A program made the translations under genes and the position numbers. Of a stretch of DNA of 5,280 nt, positions 319 to 5,280 are shown piece after piece. The notes below the pieces were generated by a model that saw nothing but the letters and a program-made list of their open reading frames with translations, searched no databases and was not told where the DNA came from. How positions within the stretch are numbered: position 1 is the first letter of the stretch; every line of letters starts with the position of its first letter. The stretch covers positions 38,585-43,864 of the forward strand of contig MGQK01000046.1 in the NCBI GenBank assembly GCA_001797815.1. The letters are read 5' to 3'. This DNA comes from Deltaproteobacteria bacterium RBG_13_61_14 (GTDB lineage Bacteria; RBG-13-61-14).

Positions 319-1773
319 ATGCTCAGCCTCCTGTTCCTCAACCCGCCCAACGAGTTTCACGAACCGGTCGGCCGCGACCTCATCTACGGCTGTTGGTGCC
401 ACGGCAAGCGGGTGGCGGACATGCAACTGCCCCCGCTCCACCTCCTCTACCTCGCCACTATTCTCCGCGAACTGGGCGGGCACCGGGTCCGCGTGCTCGA
501 CGCCCTGGTGCAAAACCTCTCGCTCTCGGCCATTGCCGAGCAGGCCAAGGCCTTTGACGCGATGGTCATCCACACCTCCAACACCACTTTTCGCTACGAC
601 CTCAAAGTGCTGGCCGCAGTCAAGGCGGCCAAGCCCGGGACCATTTCCATCCTGACCGGGCCGCATCCCACGGTTTACCCGGAGCTGGTGATGCAGGAGG
701 GAATCGTGGACCTGGCCGTGCAGGGGGAAGCCGAGGATACCCTGCTCGAGCTCTTCGGAAAACTCGCCGGCGGTGACGGGCTTGCCGACGTGGCCGGCCT
801 GGTCTGGCGCGACCGGGGTAAAGTGGTGAGCAACCCGCGCCGGCCGCTGCGCCCGAACCTGGACGAATGGCCTTTCCCCGACCGCTCGCTGGTGGATTCC
901 AGCCTTTATTACAATCCCCACTCCCGGCGCTCGCCCTTCACCACCGCGCTCACCAGCCGGGGCTGCGTGGCCCGCTGCATCTTTTGCACTTCCCCTCCTT
1001 TTTACCACGGCAAGTTCCGCCAGCGATCGGCCGCGAACGTGCTTGCAGAATTGAAAACGCTCCGCGACCAGGGCTTCCGCGAGGTGCTCTTCCGCGACGA
1101 GTCCTTTACCGAAAACCGCAAGCGCCTGCGCGCCATCTGCTCGGGCCTGATCGAGCAGGACCTGGACCTGACCTGGATCGCCAACTCCCGGGTGGGCGTG
1201 CTGGATGAAGAGGATCTCCGGCTGATGAAGCGGGCCGGGTGCTTCTACCTCTGGGTGGGGGTGGAGTCCGGCTCGCAGCCGGTGCTGGACCGGCTGCGCA
1301 AGGGGATCACGGTGGAGGAAACCCGGGAGATGTTTCGGATGGCGAACAAGATGGGCATCAACATCCACGCCCATCTCATGTTCGGGAACCCGGGCGAGAC
1401 CAAAGAGGACATCCTTCAGAGCATCCGCTTTTTAATGGAGATCGAGCCGGCCGCGGTGGACATCGGCATCACCACGCCCTTTCCCGGCACCCCGCTCTTC
1501 GAGCAGGTGAAGGCGAAAAACCCCCAGATCGGCGACGGCTCGGAGCTGCAGATTGACCAGGTCCACAACATCGCCTTTTTCAGCCGGCACTATTGCGAGC
1601 TGGACGAGGAATTTCTGGAAAACGCGCTCCTCCTGGCTTACCGGAGGTTCTACCTGCGGCCGGCTTATGTGCTCCGCTACCTCCGCCGCATCCGCTCGCT
1701 CCGTCAATTGCTGAACGTGGTCCGCGCCGGCTTCAACCTCCTCCTCTACCTCTTCCGCGACCGCCGGAATTAA
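319..1773 (+). CDS. B12-binding-domain radical SAM protein (BchE/oxidative cyclase-like class)
   Basis: The predicted protein has 484 residues. Residues ~1-150 look like a cobalamin-binding fold: a LFLNPP start, PPLHLLYLATILRELGG, then GPHPTVYPE and VQGEAEDTL, all typical of this class. The radical SAM core follows. The 4Fe-4S/SAM cluster motif CxxxCxxC is complete (C216, C220, C223, in CVARCIFC), followed by FRDESFTENRKR, GVESGSQPVLDRLRKGIT and MFGNPGETKEDI. The C-terminal ~60 residues are Arg-rich with hydrophobic stretches (e.g. FNLLLYLF), possibly for membrane contact. The ATG at 319 is preferred because the first residues match the family start; an upstream TTG at 250 would overlap pgi. 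No clear Shine-Dalgarno is present, so translation may be coupled to pgi. The substrate cannot be read from sequence; relatives act in lipid, hopanoid, tetrapyrrole and natural-product modification. The last Asn codon and TAA stop lie in an AATTAA motif that belongs to the repeat next door. Confidence 0.92.
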   Translation: MLSLLFLNPPNEFHEPVGRDLIYGCWCHGKRVADMQLPPLHLLYLATILRELGGHRVRVLDALVQNLSLSAIAEQAKAFDAMVIHTSNTTFRYDLKVLAAVKAAKPGTISILTGPHPTVYPELVMQEGIVDLAVQGEAEDTLLELFGKLAGGDGLADVAGLVWRDRGKVVSNPRRPLRPNLDEWPFPDRSLVDSSLYYNPHSRRSPFTTALTSRGCVARCIFCTSPPFYHGKFRQRSAANVLAELKTLRDQGFREVLFRDESFTENRKRLRAICSGLIEQDLDLTWIANSRVGVLDEEDLRLMKRAGCFYLWVGVESGSQPVLDRLRKGITVEETREMFRMANKMGINIHAHLMFGNPGETKEDILQSIRFLMEIEPAAVDIGITTPFPGTPLFEQVKAKNPQIGDGSELQIDQVHNIAFFSRHYCELDEEFLENALLLAYRRFYLRPAYVLRYLRRIRSLRQLLNVVRAGFNLLLYLFRDRRN

Positions 1774-1785
1774 AGGGAATTAAAG
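1766..1785. repeat. Tandem duplication of GGAATTAAAG at the left edge of the repeat cluster
   Basis: The 10-mer GGAATTAAAG occurs twice in direct tandem (1766-1775 and 1776-1785). The second copy is the outer arm of repeat unit A. The first contains the stop codon of the radical SAM gene. It may be a local duplication made when the element arrived or by replication slippage. Confidence 0.85.
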
Positions 1786-1803
1786 GGACACCATACTTAA
1801 TTC
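1777..1803 (+). repeat. RAYT-associated repeat unit A (left-end type)
   Basis: It has outer arm GAATTAAA and core GGGACACCATACTTAATTC (1785-1803). The unit starts with GAATT and ends with AATTC, so its tips are themselves complementary. Its outer 16 bases are identical to the outer arm of unit F read on the opposite strand. Confidence 0.92.
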
Positions 1804-1829
1804 TATTTTGGGGACAGCATACTTAATTC
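1803..1829 (+). repeat. RAYT-associated repeat unit B (left-end type, diverged)
   Basis: The core GGGGACAGCATACTTAATTC lies at 1810-1829, in the same orientation as unit A and separated from A's core by six bases. It differs from A by G instead of C within GACAGC. The outer arm has drifted to CTATTTT. It can pair with unit C to form a long hairpin between the radical SAM and transposase genes, with a ~31-base loop. Confidence 0.88.
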
Positions 1830-1858
1830 AATACACAGCTTATCCAACAGACAATTAG

Positions 1859-1885
1859 TAATTAAATATGGTGTCCCCAAAATTA
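1859..1885 (-). repeat. RAYT-associated repeat unit C (inverse orientation)
   Basis: The core AATTAAATATGGTGTCCCC is at 1860-1878, followed by AAAATTA. It is inverse to A and B. Against A the core has one mismatch, so A-C (or B-C) pairing would form a stem just upstream of the transposase promoter region. Such a structure could end transcription arriving from the pgi/radical SAM side and could also be bound by the transposase. Confidence 0.88.
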
Positions 1886-1927
1886 TATTTTCTTGACTTT
1901 AGCAGGGGAAGTTAATAGGATAAGACC

Positions 1928-2593
1928 ATGCCGAGACTGGCCAGAGTCGTGGCCCCAGGCCACCCCCACCATCTCACCCAGCGCGGCAACCGCCGCCAGC
2001 CCACCTTCTTCTGCCAAGACGACTACCAAACCTACCTCTATCTGATGTCCGAATGGTGCCAAAGCCACCAGGTCTCAGTCTGGGCCTATTGCCTCATGCC
2101 CAACCATGTCCACCTGATCGCGGTCCCTGCCACGGTGGACGGCCTGCGCCGCGCCATCGGCGAAGCCCACCGCCGTTACACCCGCCGGGTGAACTTCCGC
2201 GAAAACTGGCGCGGCCACCTCTGGCAGGGCCGCTTCGCCTCATTCATCCTGGACGAGGCTTACCTCCTTGCCGCAGCCCGCTACATCGAACTCAACCCGG
2301 TCCGGGCCGGGCTCGCGGCTTCACCCGGCGATTATCCCTGGTCCAGCGCCGCCGCTCACCTGGCCGGCAAAGATAACCGCCTGGTCCAGACGGCTCCCTT
2401 GCTGGAAATGGTGCCGGATTGGGCCGGATTCCTGCTCCAAACCTCCCGCGATAACCTGGGCCCGCAACTGCGCCGCCACGAGCGCACCGGCCGGCCCTTG
2501 GGGGAGGGGGCTTTTCTTGCCAAACTTGAAAAAGAGTTGAGTCGCCGCTTGGCTAGCCGCAAAACAGGCCCAAAGCCGAAAAAAGGGAATTAG
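1928..2593 (+). CDS. REP-associated tyrosine transposase (RAYT), Y1/IS200-like HUH family
   Basis: The 221-residue protein belongs to the Y1 transposase superfamily (IS200-like fold), which nicks single-stranded DNA at hairpin repeats through a covalent 5'-phosphotyrosine. Visible hallmarks are the N-terminal MPRLAR...HHLTQRGNRRQ, the metal-binding HUH motif H60-V-H62 in MPNHVHLIA, GHLWQGRF at ~97-103, and ARYIELNPVRAGL, whose Y119 is the best candidate nucleophile by comparison with the remembered E. coli RAYT. A WSS motif at ~138-140 and a basic tail (KTGPKPKKG) complete the usual domain order. All key residues are present and the frame is intact, so the enzyme may be active. ATG 1928 is supported by AGGA at 1917-1920. 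Its base composition is GC-rich like the neighbouring chromosome. The final Asn codon and TAG stop lie inside repeat unit D. Confidence 0.94.
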   Translation: MPRLARVVAPGHPHHLTQRGNRRQPTFFCQDDYQTYLYLMSEWCQSHQVSVWAYCLMPNHVHLIAVPATVDGLRRAIGEAHRRYTRRVNFRENWRGHLWQGRFASFILDEAYLLAAARYIELNPVRAGLAASPGDYPWSSAAAHLAGKDNRLVQTAPLLEMVPDWAGFLLQTSRDNLGPQLRRHERTGRPLGEGAFLAKLEKELSRRLASRKTGPKPKKGN

Positions 2594-2613
2594 GTATGGT
2601 GTCCCCAAAATTC
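2587..2613 (-). repeat. RAYT-associated repeat unit D (right-end type)
   Basis: It reads GAATTAGGTATGGTGTCCCC followed by AAAATTC. It supplies the last codon and stop of the transposase gene. Its first 19 bases are identical to unit F at 4293-4311 and in the same orientation, so D and F are direct repeats enclosing the propeller segment. Both carry TTAGG where the inverse of the left-end type has TTAAG. Confidence 0.92.
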
Positions 2614-2802
2614 CGAATTCACAAGCTTCAATGGATTTGCTATGGAATGGTGCATTCTGGATCAAAATCTTAAGAACTGTGCCATATAGATAGTTCCTTT
2701 ATCAGGCCCTTAAGCCTGGAGTTCAAGACAAAAAGCCAGCCAAAGAGAGGCGTGAGTGTTTGCACTTCTTAATCGAGTTTGGCACAAGGAGCTTCTGGGA
2801 AG

Positions 2803-2840
2803 ATCCCTGGGAGGTAGGTTTACCTTGCCGGGGATTTTTT
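2803..2840 (+). terminator. Rho-independent terminator in the leader of the propeller gene
   Basis: The outer stem ATCCCTGG (2803-2810) pairs with CCGGGGAT (2828-2835), 8 pairs including one G-T. The inner stem AGGTA (2812-2816) pairs with TACCT (2821-2825) around the loop GGTT. A short G-T/bulge joint separates the two stems. A run of T follows directly (2835-2840). It reads on the + strand, 210 bases after the transposase stop and 98 bases before the ATG at 2939. It either ends transposase transcription or acts as a leader attenuator. Confidence 0.75.
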
Positions 2841-2856
2841 GTTCGCGGTGGATTTG

Positions 2857-2891
2857 CGCGGCTGAGGCTTCGGCCGTGAGCTCAGTCGAAC
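2857..2891. repeat. GC-rich palindromic stretch, possibly a second REP-like family
   Basis: A 9-pair stem can form between 2857-2865 and 2870-2878 (two G-T pairs, loop GGCT). Overlapping it is a second palindrome: TTCG (2869-2872), the perfect 8-mer TGAGCTCA (2877-2884), and CGAA (2887-2890). Sequences of the type TTCGnnnnTGAGCTCAnnCGAACGG resemble dispersed intergenic repeats I recall from other bacterial genomes. Only one copy is in this window, so the family assignment is a guess. No T-run follows, so it is not a terminator. Confidence 0.35.
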
Positions 2892-2926
2892 GGTCAGCCA
2901 CGCCCCTAAGGAGTTCATTTGATCGG

Positions 2927-2933
2927 GGGGGAG
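2927..2933 (+). promoter_or_regulatory. Ribosome binding site deciding the start at 2939
   Basis: GGGGGAG ends 5 bases before ATG 2939. The protein from this ATG begins with a short basic segment and a single transmembrane helix, as expected for a true N-terminus. A better Shine-Dalgarno match, TAAGGAG at 2907-2913, is 25 bases away from this ATG and too far to serve it directly. Confidence 0.6.
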
Positions 2934-2938
2934 CGAAG

Positions 2939-4192
2939 ATGAGTGAAGAGAAGAAGAATGGAAAGAAGCGAGTAGGCTGGGTGATAGCCCTGATCGTGGT
3001 TATGGCCATGTTGGTTGGAGGAGGATGGTGGTTGTGGGGGAAGGACTTCCTGAGGGGAGCGGGAGCGGAAGGAGAGGCGGGGAAGAAGGGGGATCAGCCG
3101 GGCAAAGTTGCGGGAGCAATGCCGGCGCCGGGGGGAGATGAGGAGAGGCTGGCGGGGATGGAAAAGGGAGAAATGAAGGGCAAGGAAGTTGCTCTGGCCA
3201 AAGAAAGCGACAAGAAGCCGGCCAAGATGATCGAATACAAGAAGCGGGTGATCCGGGAGTTCAAGTGGAATGAGGGAGTGGATTCGTTGCATTGGACAAA
3301 TGTTGATGGTGGGTCATGGGGTCCAATTGGGTTATTAGCCAACAAACAAGGCTATATTTATATTTTTGATCTCTATGATAATTGTAAAATTATTAGCCCC
3401 AATGGGGAATTAGTAAAAATTGCAAATTATAATACAGGAGAACCGTTAGGAATTGATGGGAATGGAAATGTTATTTCAACAGGAGGCGTATACGATTCTG
3501 ATCTTAACTTGATTAAGCGCTTCAGACTGCCTGCTGTCCTGCCCGAGTACCGTTCAAGTTCTTATATATCCGAAGATGGAAAGCTATATATCATTAATCG
3601 AGAATTAGATAAGAGAGATAACAAGCATTACATTTATTACATTTATCGCTGTGAACCTTACAGCAATGATTTAAGAATTGATGAAAAACTGATGAAATAC
3701 AATCCAGGGAAGGCTCCTACTATGGTTATTCCCTGTGATATTATTGATCCAGATGAAGCGCCCCAATATGCTCAGTTGGCCAAGCAATTCATGGAAGGGA
3801 ATATCAATAAAAATGTTAATAGCAACGGTATCTATTCATTCACACTTGATGATGTGATTTATCATATATATTTTAATAGTGATCTGAAGATTTCATTAGG
3901 GGAGCTATTGGCCATGGGTAAGCAAGGTAATCTCTATGTCACGTATCACCAATTTCTTTTTTACAGTAAATCCAGCTTATCCGATAGCTATAATCTTGCC
4001 ATAACAAACCGGGACGGTTTGATTGGAAATATAACCCTTTGTGAGTCGCCTCATTTTACTTGGCCCGGAGGCATATCCACATATATTTATGTTGAGCAAT
4101 ATTCAGGAAAAGTTTATCAGATTTGTGAAAAAGAAGAAGAGGAGAATCCGGTACTAATCGTTTGGGAAGGAATCAAGGAGGAAAAGAAATGA
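2939..4192 (+). CDS. Membrane-anchored protein with beta-propeller-like (NHL-like) outer domain
   Basis: I do not recognise a named family for this 417-residue protein. Residues 1-11 are polar and basic, and 12-34 form one hydrophobic helix (VGWVIALIVVMAMLVGGGWW) acting as an uncleaved anchor. Residues 35-100 are a low-complexity Gly/Lys/Glu linker. From ~105 the sequence shows repeated beta-strand units like NHL/SMP-30 propellers: GPIGLLANKQGYIYIFD then ISPNGELVKI, GIDGNGNVIS, SEDGKLYIIN, and MGKQGNLYVTYHQ. Five cysteines (C149, C238, C266, C368, C396) lie in the probably exported domain, which could permit disulfides. The orientation is most likely N-in, C-out. The stop TGA overlaps the next start as ATGA, so both genes form an operon. 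Bases before ~3295 are GC- and purine-rich, whereas bases after it are strongly AT-rich, as if two sources were joined near codon 119. An upstream TTG or GTG extension (from 2756) is rejected because it crosses a terminator. Function is unknown; surface sensing or binding is only a guess. Confidence 0.82.
   Translation: MSEEKKNGKKRVGWVIALIVVMAMLVGGGWWLWGKDFLRGAGAEGEAGKKGDQPGKVAGAMPAPGGDEERLAGMEKGEMKGKEVALAKESDKKPAKMIEYKKRVIREFKWNEGVDSLHWTNVDGGSWGPIGLLANKQGYIYIFDLYDNCKIISPNGELVKIANYNTGEPLGIDGNGNVISTGGVYDSDLNLIKRFRLPAVLPEYRSSSYISEDGKLYIINRELDKRDNKHYIYYIYRCEPYSNDLRIDEKLMKYNPGKAPTMVIPCDIIDPDEAPQYAQLAKQFMEGNINKNVNSNGIYSFTLDDVIYHIYFNSDLKISLGELLAMGKQGNLYVTYHQFLFYSKSSLSDSYNLAITNRDGLIGNITLCESPHFTWPGGISTYIYVEQYSGKVYQICEKEEEENPVLIVWEGIKEEKK
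4175..4181 (+). promoter_or_regulatory. Perfect Shine-Dalgarno for the truncated secreted-protein gene
   Basis: AAGGAGG lies 7 bases before ATG 4189, inside the end of the propeller gene. This is the best ribosome binding site in the window and argues that the ATGA-overlapping start was a real gene start. Confidence 0.8.
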
Positions 4193-4299
4193 AAAGGATT
4201 TATTTATTAATGAGTTCAGTTATTCTATTGTGGACAGGAATAAGCTTTTCGCAAACGAATTCGGGGGACACCATACTTAATTCAGTCATCTTGAATTAG
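4189..4299 (+). pseudogene. Truncated gene for a secreted protein (signal peptide only), cut by the REPIN
   Basis: The frame begins at an ATG overlapping the preceding stop (ATGA) behind a perfect AAGGAGG. The first 23 codons give a textbook signal peptide: MKR, a hydrophobic core (IYLLMSSVILLWTGI), then SFS-QT, with likely cleavage after residue 21. From base 4257 onward the sequence is the palindromic repeat, which by chance adds 13 more residues and ends with AAT-TAG at 4294-4299. The true mature domain is missing, and nothing after the repeat continues it, since the complementary strand there already encodes the oxidoreductase. It is therefore best read as the 5' remnant of an operon partner of the propeller protein. 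A real 36-residue secreted peptide is possible but less likely. Confidence 0.68.
4257..4283 (+). repeat. RAYT-associated repeat unit E (left-end type)
   Basis: It has outer arm GAATTCGG and core GGGACACCATACTTAATTC (4265-4283). The core is identical to unit A. It interrupts the truncated secreted-protein gene. Confidence 0.93.
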
Positions 4300-4319
4300 G
4301 TATGGTGTCCCTTTAATTC
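4293..4319 (-). repeat. RAYT-associated repeat unit F (right-end type)
   Basis: Its core, GAATTAGGTATGGTGTCCC, is identical to unit D, and it is followed by TTTAATTC. Read on the - strand, the outer arm is GAATTAAAGGGACACC, the same as in unit A. Its last base is also the last base of the oxidoreductase stop codon. Confidence 0.93.
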
Positions 4320-5280
4320 TACAGCTTAGTCGGGGCGATCCACTTCCCGGTCTTGGCGCTCCGGTAGATGGCTTGCACCAGTTGGGTGGCGCGCAAGCCG
4401 TCCAGGGCCGTGACCGGGCTGGGCTTTTTCTTGGTAATGGCGTTGAGGAAGGCGAGGTCTTCCTGGAGGTAGCCCCATTTTTCCGGGACGGGCAGGGTCC
4501 GGAATTCCTCCATCAGCACCTTTTGCTGAAGCCCGGTGGTGAAACGGATCTCGTCCATTTCCGCGGTCTCGGCCGCGGCGTGCTCGCCGAAGACCTCGAG
4601 GCGCTCGAACGGGAAAATCCAGGAGGTGTGGGCGCAGGAGGTGAAGGCGGCCTGGACCCCGGAGCGGAACTTGAGGAGCACGGAGAAGTCATCCAATTCT
4701 TCATAGACGCCGCGTTTGGCGAGAGCGAGGAGGGAAGCGACGTCGCCGAAGAGCCAGCGGACGAGGTCGAGGAGGTGGATGGTGGACTCATAGAGGAACC
4801 CGCCGGTGATTTTAGGGTCGCCGACCCAGGAGGGGTGCAAGAGCTCGCCCCGGTTCATCTTGACGTGGAGCGAGTGGGGCTGGATCAGCTTGCCGGCGAT
4901 GAGCTCGCGCAGCCGCACGTAAACCGGGGCGAAGCGGCGGTTGAAGCCGAGTTGGTAGAGGCGCTTGCTCTTTTTTGCCGCGGCAAAAATCCGTTTGGCC
5001 TCGGCCAGGTTGGTGGCCATGGGCTTTTCGCTGAAGACGTGAGCGCCGGCGGCGAGCGCGGCGAGCACGGCCCGGGTGTGGAGGGTGTTGGGAGTGGTCA
5101 CCCAGACCGCGTCGGGTTTCCGGGCGAGGAGCGGCGGGAGATCGGGATAGGGTTTGGCTTGGAGGAACTCGGCCAGTTCCTGGGCCCGCTGGCGGTCTTT
5201 GTCCACCACGCCGAGGACGCGGACGCCCTTCAGCTCTTGCAGGATGGCGCCGTGGGTGTTGCCCATGTGGCCGGCGCCGA
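4319..5280 (-). CDS. GFO/IDH/MocA-family NAD(P)-dependent oxidoreductase (5' end outside window)
   Basis: This is a cytoplasmic sugar or cyclitol dehydrogenase-type enzyme. The frame continues past the internal Met at 5264-5266 to the window edge, where the upstream codons read G-A-G-H-M-G. This is the GxGxxG nucleotide-binding motif, so the real start is a few codons outside the window. Numbering from that Met: DKD at 22-24 follows the second Rossmann strand, VTTPNTLH is at 56-63, and the catalytic-type EKP motif is E80-K81-P82 (HVFSEKPMATN). GGFLYESTIHLLDLVRWLFG (155-174) is the C-terminal domain motif with H164. The usual Asp four residues before this His is Glu (E160). The C-terminus YRSAKTGKWI is typical and seems complete. 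The TAG stop (4319-4321) touches the REPIN. The gene runs against the propeller operon. The specific substrate cannot be assigned. Confidence 0.93.
   Translation of the reverse strand, partial: GAGHMGNTHGAILQELKGVRVLGVVDKDRQRAQELAEFLQAKPYPDLPPLLARKPDAVWVTTPNTLHTRAVLAALAAGAHVFSEKPMATNLAEAKRIFAAAKKSKRLYQLGFNRRFAPVYVRLRELIAGKLIQPHSLHVKMNRGELLHPSWVGDPKITGGFLYESTIHLLDLVRWLFGDVASLLALAKRGVYEELDDFSVLLKFRSGVQAAFTSCAHTSWIFPFERLEVFGEHAAAETAEMDEIRFTTGLQQKVLMEEFRTLPVPEKWGYLQEDLAFLNAITKKKPSPVTALDGLRATQLVQAIYRSAKTGKWIAPTKL

Follow-up and report, generated by a model that had tools for sequence, protein, structure and literature searches.

The described system closest to the one analysed here is the TIRtron, in which the gene for a TIR-associated tyrosine transposase (TIRYT) is flanked by terminal inverted repeats (TIRs) (Di Nocera et al. 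2013, PMC3733652). A GGGGWSAS motif has been reported for TIRtron TIRs (PMC3733652), and 20 of the 26 described TIRYTs belong to subclass 2.1, with a helix-turn-helix (HTH) tail (PMC6006769). The stretch of DNA studied here, 5,280 nucleotides of Deltaproteobacteria bacterium RBG_13_61_14 (contig MGQK01000046.1, positions 38,585 to 43,864; hereafter the window), contains the gene for a Y1/HUH transposase, related to the REP-associated tyrosine transposases (RAYTs; REP, repetitive extragenic palindromic), between 27-bp repeats and, further downstream, a 63-bp hairpin made of two such repeats. It is suggested, with a probability of roughly 0.85, that the transposase gene and the repeats around it form an IS200/IS605-like TIRtron and that the hairpin is its two-TIR miniature inverted-repeat transposable element (MITE). 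As in TIRtrons, a RAYT-like gene lies between TIRs at a near-constant distance, some TIRs overlap the gene ends, the TIR motif is GGGGWSAS (GGGGACAC here) and TIRs also occur singly, as dimers and in clusters. Two features differ: most described TIRYTs are of the HTH-tailed subclass 2.1 whereas the window protein is a 221-amino-acid enzyme, and multi-copy whole units are found in sister lineages of the window transposase. A Pfam search of the protein for a C-terminal HTH (DnaA_C, HTH_23 or HTH_28) found none, which rules out subclass 2.1 but not a TIRYT, because described TIRYTs outside subclass 2.1 exist. The system adds a new TIR family and a new host to the TIRtrons/TIRYTs, a kind already known, and its MITEs are TIR dimers.

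The transposase has PF01797 (Y1_Tnp, 46.8 bits) as its sole Pfam match, scores 77 bits against the NCBIfam model for REP-associated tyrosine transposases (NF047646), slightly under the curated cut-off of 80, and aligns with Escherichia coli TnpAREP (4ER8) at an E-value of 0.002; both the HuH and the Y---NP motifs of TnpAREP and class 2 Y1 enzymes are present (Table 1). There are 19 Y1_Tnp matches in the window genome, and only the window RAYT is flanked by the 17-base repeat core, GGACACCATACYTAATT. Most of the other Y1 proteins of the genome (L040, L045 and L046, for example) are of about 320 amino acids, with a long C-terminal tail, and are distant from the window protein; a second Y1 gene (on C40) has its own palindromic TIR, containing GGGGACAG.

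The TIR itself reads (G)AATTNNGGGGACACCATACTTAATTC over its 27 bp, and the 4.74-Mb genome contains 74 copies of its core when up to two mismatches are allowed. The reversed pattern occurs nowhere, and the core is therefore not a product of chance. The GGGGWSAS motif appears as GGGGACAC or GGGGACAG in the window and in most close relatives, the window unit carrying the former. Nine converging dimers are formed among the 74 cores. The overall ratio of converging to diverging core pairs is 38 to 1. The exact core strings had no occurrence in the literature text searched, figures being outside that search. Six units were found in the window, A and B (+) with C and D (-) around the RAYT gene, and the E-F dimer downstream. 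An earlier reading of the window from its letters alone (the sequence-only reading) had placed A, D, E and F correctly, with the Y1/RAYT gene spanned by A and D and 9 bases by E and F, and had overlooked B and C, which form a separate 83-bp dimer to the left of the gene. Unit C sits close to the position that the left TIR usually takes in relatives, in the opposite orientation, and the outer TTTTGG is common to B, C and D.

The same TIR accompanies the same kind of transposase well beyond this genome. An exact scan of GTDB contigs for a 20-base core returned at least 108 stretches, and among the matches listed are Alphaproteobacteria, Desulfobacterota, Nitrospirota, Planctomycetota, Elusimicrobiota, Armatimonadota, Chloroflexota and others. 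The closest transposases in core-bearing genomes, at about 55-68% identity to that of the window, carry the same TIR, and orthologues with the same TIR were recorded in Planctomycetota, Nitrospirota, Desulfobacterota, Alphaproteobacteria, Chloroflexota and Armatimonadota. Left-end and right-end TIR pairs were scored for the window and 55 other records; in the usual geometry of the relatives the left TIR begins 53-57 bp ahead of the ATG, and the stop codon is overlapped by the right TIR. The sequence TTGAC follows immediately inside the left TIR in about 10 of the 17 relatives compared. Given that the genomes of the GTDB scan had been picked for the core, association was measured in an unselected sample of 386 genomes, where the core occurred in 29, the transposase (E<=1e-40) in 34 and both in 15 (odds ratio 19, p 2e-10); at this threshold a RAYT was present in 15/29 core genomes as against 19/357 of the others. 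When the core-type TIR label was mapped onto a tree of 83 transposases, it required 7 changes, compared with a mean of 24 for shuffled labels (none of 500 shuffles reached so low a number), and the 30 core-type rows all fell inside one 40-row clade with an SH-aLRT support of 94, in a quick tree with many open forks. This co-occurrence, together with the fit to the tree, indicates that TIR and transposase travel and evolve together. As to vehicles, relatives were found on 8 plasmids, all of them distant (<60% identity), and in no phage.

Evidence that these elements have moved comes from copies at several stages. At C9:25926-26112 two TIRs surround an internally deleted, in-frame transposase, LE-MPRLAPGC...KPGPKPLKGN*-RE (LE and RE, left and right ends; 26096 is the second core), which we interpret as an intermediate between whole unit and dimer. 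The E-F dimer (C46) and a dimer on C99 are identical at 61 of 63 positions, loop included, and their flanks are unrelated. The sequence-only reading took the hairpin for a non-autonomous derivative with the same ends as the RAYT unit, and this is supported by the co-occurrence and co-variation of TIR and RAYT, by the deleted RAYT between TIRs and by this 61/63 copy. In sister lineages whole units are repeated: a Candidatus Anammoxibacter metagenome-assembled genome (MAG; G073) has four full and four contig-cut units at 92-96%, and a second genome (G232) has two whole-unit copies at 91.6%; in both, the flanks are unrelated and similarity stops at the TIRs. Two copies at 97.8% also lie on a single contig of G361, which belongs to the broader TIR clade; the contig start cuts one of them. 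The window's own genome has only fragments of the transposase unit and one deleted copy. These whole-unit copies in relatives provide unusual evidence, at the level of sequence, that units of this kind can jump entire.

On these grounds the unit is proposed to be a TIRtron consisting of a class-2 Y1 HUH transposase, a RAYT/TnpAREP relative, bounded by 27-bp TIRs; in relatives the left one abuts the putative -35 box of the gene and the right one holds its stop codon. The transposase would recognise the TIR, probably as a single-stranded hairpin of paired TIRs, and HUH/Tyr-mediated cleavage would occur at the AATT ends; the hairpin, a MITE of two converging TIRs, would have been copied in trans by the window transposase or a close relative, and new copies would settle at stop codons, where insertion may be tolerated or preferred. 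Units and dimers alike are most likely moved by the HUH/Tyr enzyme, with paired TIRs in single-stranded form as its substrate. How the TIR is recognised and cleaved, and in which direction causality runs, are argued here from knowledge of the family; what the sequences themselves establish are the shared ends, the co-occurrence and co-variation, the converging orientation, the deleted intermediate, the near-identical dimers at unrelated sites and the whole-unit copies of relatives.

Several observations weigh against this interpretation. First, 17 of 50 core-bearing genomes have no RAYT at E<=1e-20, some of them with 25-37 cores. The sequence-only reading had named repeats abundant in relatives without any RAYT as evidence against itself; such genomes do occur, yet the overall association is strong. 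Most of the 17 are MAGs of unknown completeness, and the missing RAYT may reflect loss or incompleteness. Second, the multi-copy whole units come from sister lineages with other TIRs, and the exact TIR type of the window shows only a 5'-truncated duplicate (G065, L292; 98.6% over 503 bp). Third, the single attempt to find an empty site, with the same-genus pair G259/G389, found none, the sequences being too diverged, so that insertion is deduced from copies rather than from an occupied/empty pair. Fourth, the left end of the window copy (A, B, C) is rearranged compared with most relatives and may be non-working, in which case the copy would no longer be competent. Finally, most of the other genomes are MAGs, and single cross-phylum assignments may be misbinned.

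A further regularity concerns stop codons, which the outer end of the unit overlaps, for open reading frames (ORFs) of at least 100 codons, at 16 of the 74 cores; 1.7 would be expected (p 1e-11). The expectation was derived by placing positions at random within the same loci, and because ORFs were taken collectively and the sites within a genome have a common ancestry, the p-values are indicative. For the eight stand-alone dimers, 10 of 16 ends lie on stop codons (0.4 expected), and in other genomes 13 of 54 dimer ends do so, against 2.6%. GTAG REPs behave likewise, their TAG often terminating flanking ORFs (PMC3733652). This placement, together with the strong hairpin, raises the possibility that the dimers are kept chiefly for a bidirectional role at 3' ends where genes converge, as terminators or mRNA stabilisers, with mobility past or incidental. 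This is unlikely for two reasons: first, it leaves the ends shared with the transposase, the deleted intermediate and the copies at unrelated sites unexplained; second, the same bias would be expected if the only tolerated insertions are those at stop codons. We lean slightly towards the broader view that TIR-type class-2 Y1 units are IS-like elements with true mobility that cross phyla, and that two-TIR hairpins insert by preference where convergent genes have their stop codons, so that the stop is supplied or preserved by the TIR end.

Comparison with REPtrons (PMC2817692, PMC3116915, PMC6006769) raises a second alternative, namely that this is a true REPIN/REPtron with REP singlets bearing a GTAG-like foot and a domesticated, vertically inherited TnpAREP. 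The protein superfamily is the same, with an HUH/Y1 enzyme and the HuH and Y---NP motifs; inverted repeats lie on both sides of the gene, scattered inverted dimers form hairpins, and the units sit at gene ends and supply stops, a 3' location like that of GTAG REPs (PMC3733652). The repeat itself is different. No GT[AG]G foot exists within the unit, which has the GGGGWSAS motif of TIRs instead, and a lone 27-mer folds poorly: E and D have a z of about 0 and A a weak -2.1, and the single unit as a REP hairpin was rejected on this basis. The dimers do fold, E-F reaching -19.4 kcal/mol as single-stranded DNA (z -8.8, and strong on either strand, at -8.8 and -7.5) and B-C -16.6 kcal/mol (z -6.1). 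Whole units in several copies in relatives, and a repeat that crosses phyla, are likewise unlike REPtrons, and this alternative is given little credence. The label REPIN, used in the sequence-only reading, is imprecise: it fits insofar as the hairpin is a dimer of inverted units; as the single unit has neither a proper hairpin nor the foot, the unit is termed a TIR rather than a REP. With IS200/IS605 elements (TnpA-IS200, class 1) the TIRtron interpretation would share the expected Y1 HUH chemistry, the apparent whole-unit mobility in relatives and the lack of an obvious target-site duplication; the window protein differs in its class-2 signature, YIELNP, and the element in having true TIRs, 20-35 bp long, as its ends. 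Like bacterial MITEs the hairpins are short and non-coding with TIR ends, and an internally deleted derivative exists, but they would be mobilised by a Y1 and not a DDE transposase.

The sequence-only reading further held that left ends (T) and right ends (C) are distinguishable and give the RAYT element, and likewise the hairpin, a direction. Within the window alone A and E have T while D and F have C, and the dimers at C46, C99 and C110 have the same asymmetric pair of arms. Genome-wide pairing, however, does not sort the variants into left and right, an outcome that the sequence-only reading had itself named as counting against it: the converging dimers of the window genome are TT in five cases, TC in two and CT in two, and those of other genomes (n=29) are TT in 26, CT in two and TA in one. 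Nor do the units group by side, A matching F at 26 of 27 positions and A-E, D-E and D-F each agreeing at 24 of 27. The variable base falls on the last position of the stop codon of the RAYT gene (AAT TAG at 2588-2593); in most relatives the sequence is AAT TAA, which puts T at both ends. A polar model is therefore very improbable, and the three dimers with the same two unlike arms are best explained by recent copying of a single dimer. That the pattern is an assembly or binning artefact is scarcely credible, even with source genomes that are mostly MAGs, given that the 74 copies are dispersed over many contigs, each with its own context, and recur in dozens of independent genomes. With the polarity corrected, the locus presents a cross-phylum repeat family tied to its transposase, and it offers, as multi-copy units, a deletion intermediate and stop-codon insertions, concrete loci for two open questions: the unit movement of RAYT-type genes and the origin of REP-like dimers.

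Other forms of the repeat were also seen. Three sets of single cores (C79:41850, C82:43054 and C118:6201; C44:797, C60:26104, C65:26699 and C65:31908; C109:15076/16223) have 80-300 bp of common noncoding inner sequence that begins exactly at the TIR, which suggests additional non-autonomous elements with one such end. That they are the ends of one further element family was considered and rejected, no common gene or second end having been found. The single cores at C9:25926 and C99:67090, at least, are C-terminal remnants of RAYT genes. Outside many TIRs (L093/L209, L208, C81:45187, C85:2118) stand tandem partial TIRs that terminate at GGGGACA(CC), as if by repeated insertion beside existing ends.

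Table 1. Features of the window, numbered from its first nucleotide.
Feature	Position	Strand	Remarks
B12-binding radical-SAM gene	319-1773	+	Upstream of RAYT; stop TAA 1771-1773
Partial TIR copy GAATTAAAG			Just before unit A; contains the radical-SAM stop TAA 1771-1773
TIR unit A, GAATTAAAGGGACACCATACTTAATTC	1777-1803	+	Best match F (26/27)
TIR unit B, CTATTTTGGGGACAGCATACTTAATTC	1803-1829	+	Outer arm of B-C dimer
TIR unit C	1859-1885	-	Inner arm of B-C dimer
Putative promoter	1893-1921	+	TTGACT (1893-1898), 17-nt spacer, TAGGAT (1916-1921); consensus matched by eye
Y1/HUH transposase (RAYT/TnpAREP-like), 221 aa	1928-2593	+	HUH motif PNHVHL, Y motif YIELNP
TIR unit D, right end	2587-2613	-	AATTAG encodes last codon (Asn) and stop of transposase
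Unrelated ORF	2756-4192		Likely start ATG 2939; between RAYT and E-F dimer
63-bp TIR dimer/MITE	4257-4319		Unit E 4257-4283 (+), 9-nt loop, unit F 4293-4319 (-)
Gfo/Idh/MocA oxidoreductase gene	4319-5266	-	Adjoins E-F dimer

Of the neighbouring genes (Table 1), the radical-SAM protein has HpnJ as its closest model, with a score far under the HpnJ cut-off. The 417-residue product of the ORF that follows the RAYT gene (from the likely start) has no match in Pfam or NCBIfam, and its N-terminus has a transmembrane-like segment. The minus-strand Gfo/Idh gene has its stop codon completed by the outermost base of unit F. On the other side of the dimer a possible ORF (4189-4290), with the signal-peptide-like start MKRIYLLMSSVILLWTGISFSQT, enters E-F and terminates inside it, with no coding remainder downstream, and is perhaps a gene cut short by insertion of the dimer.

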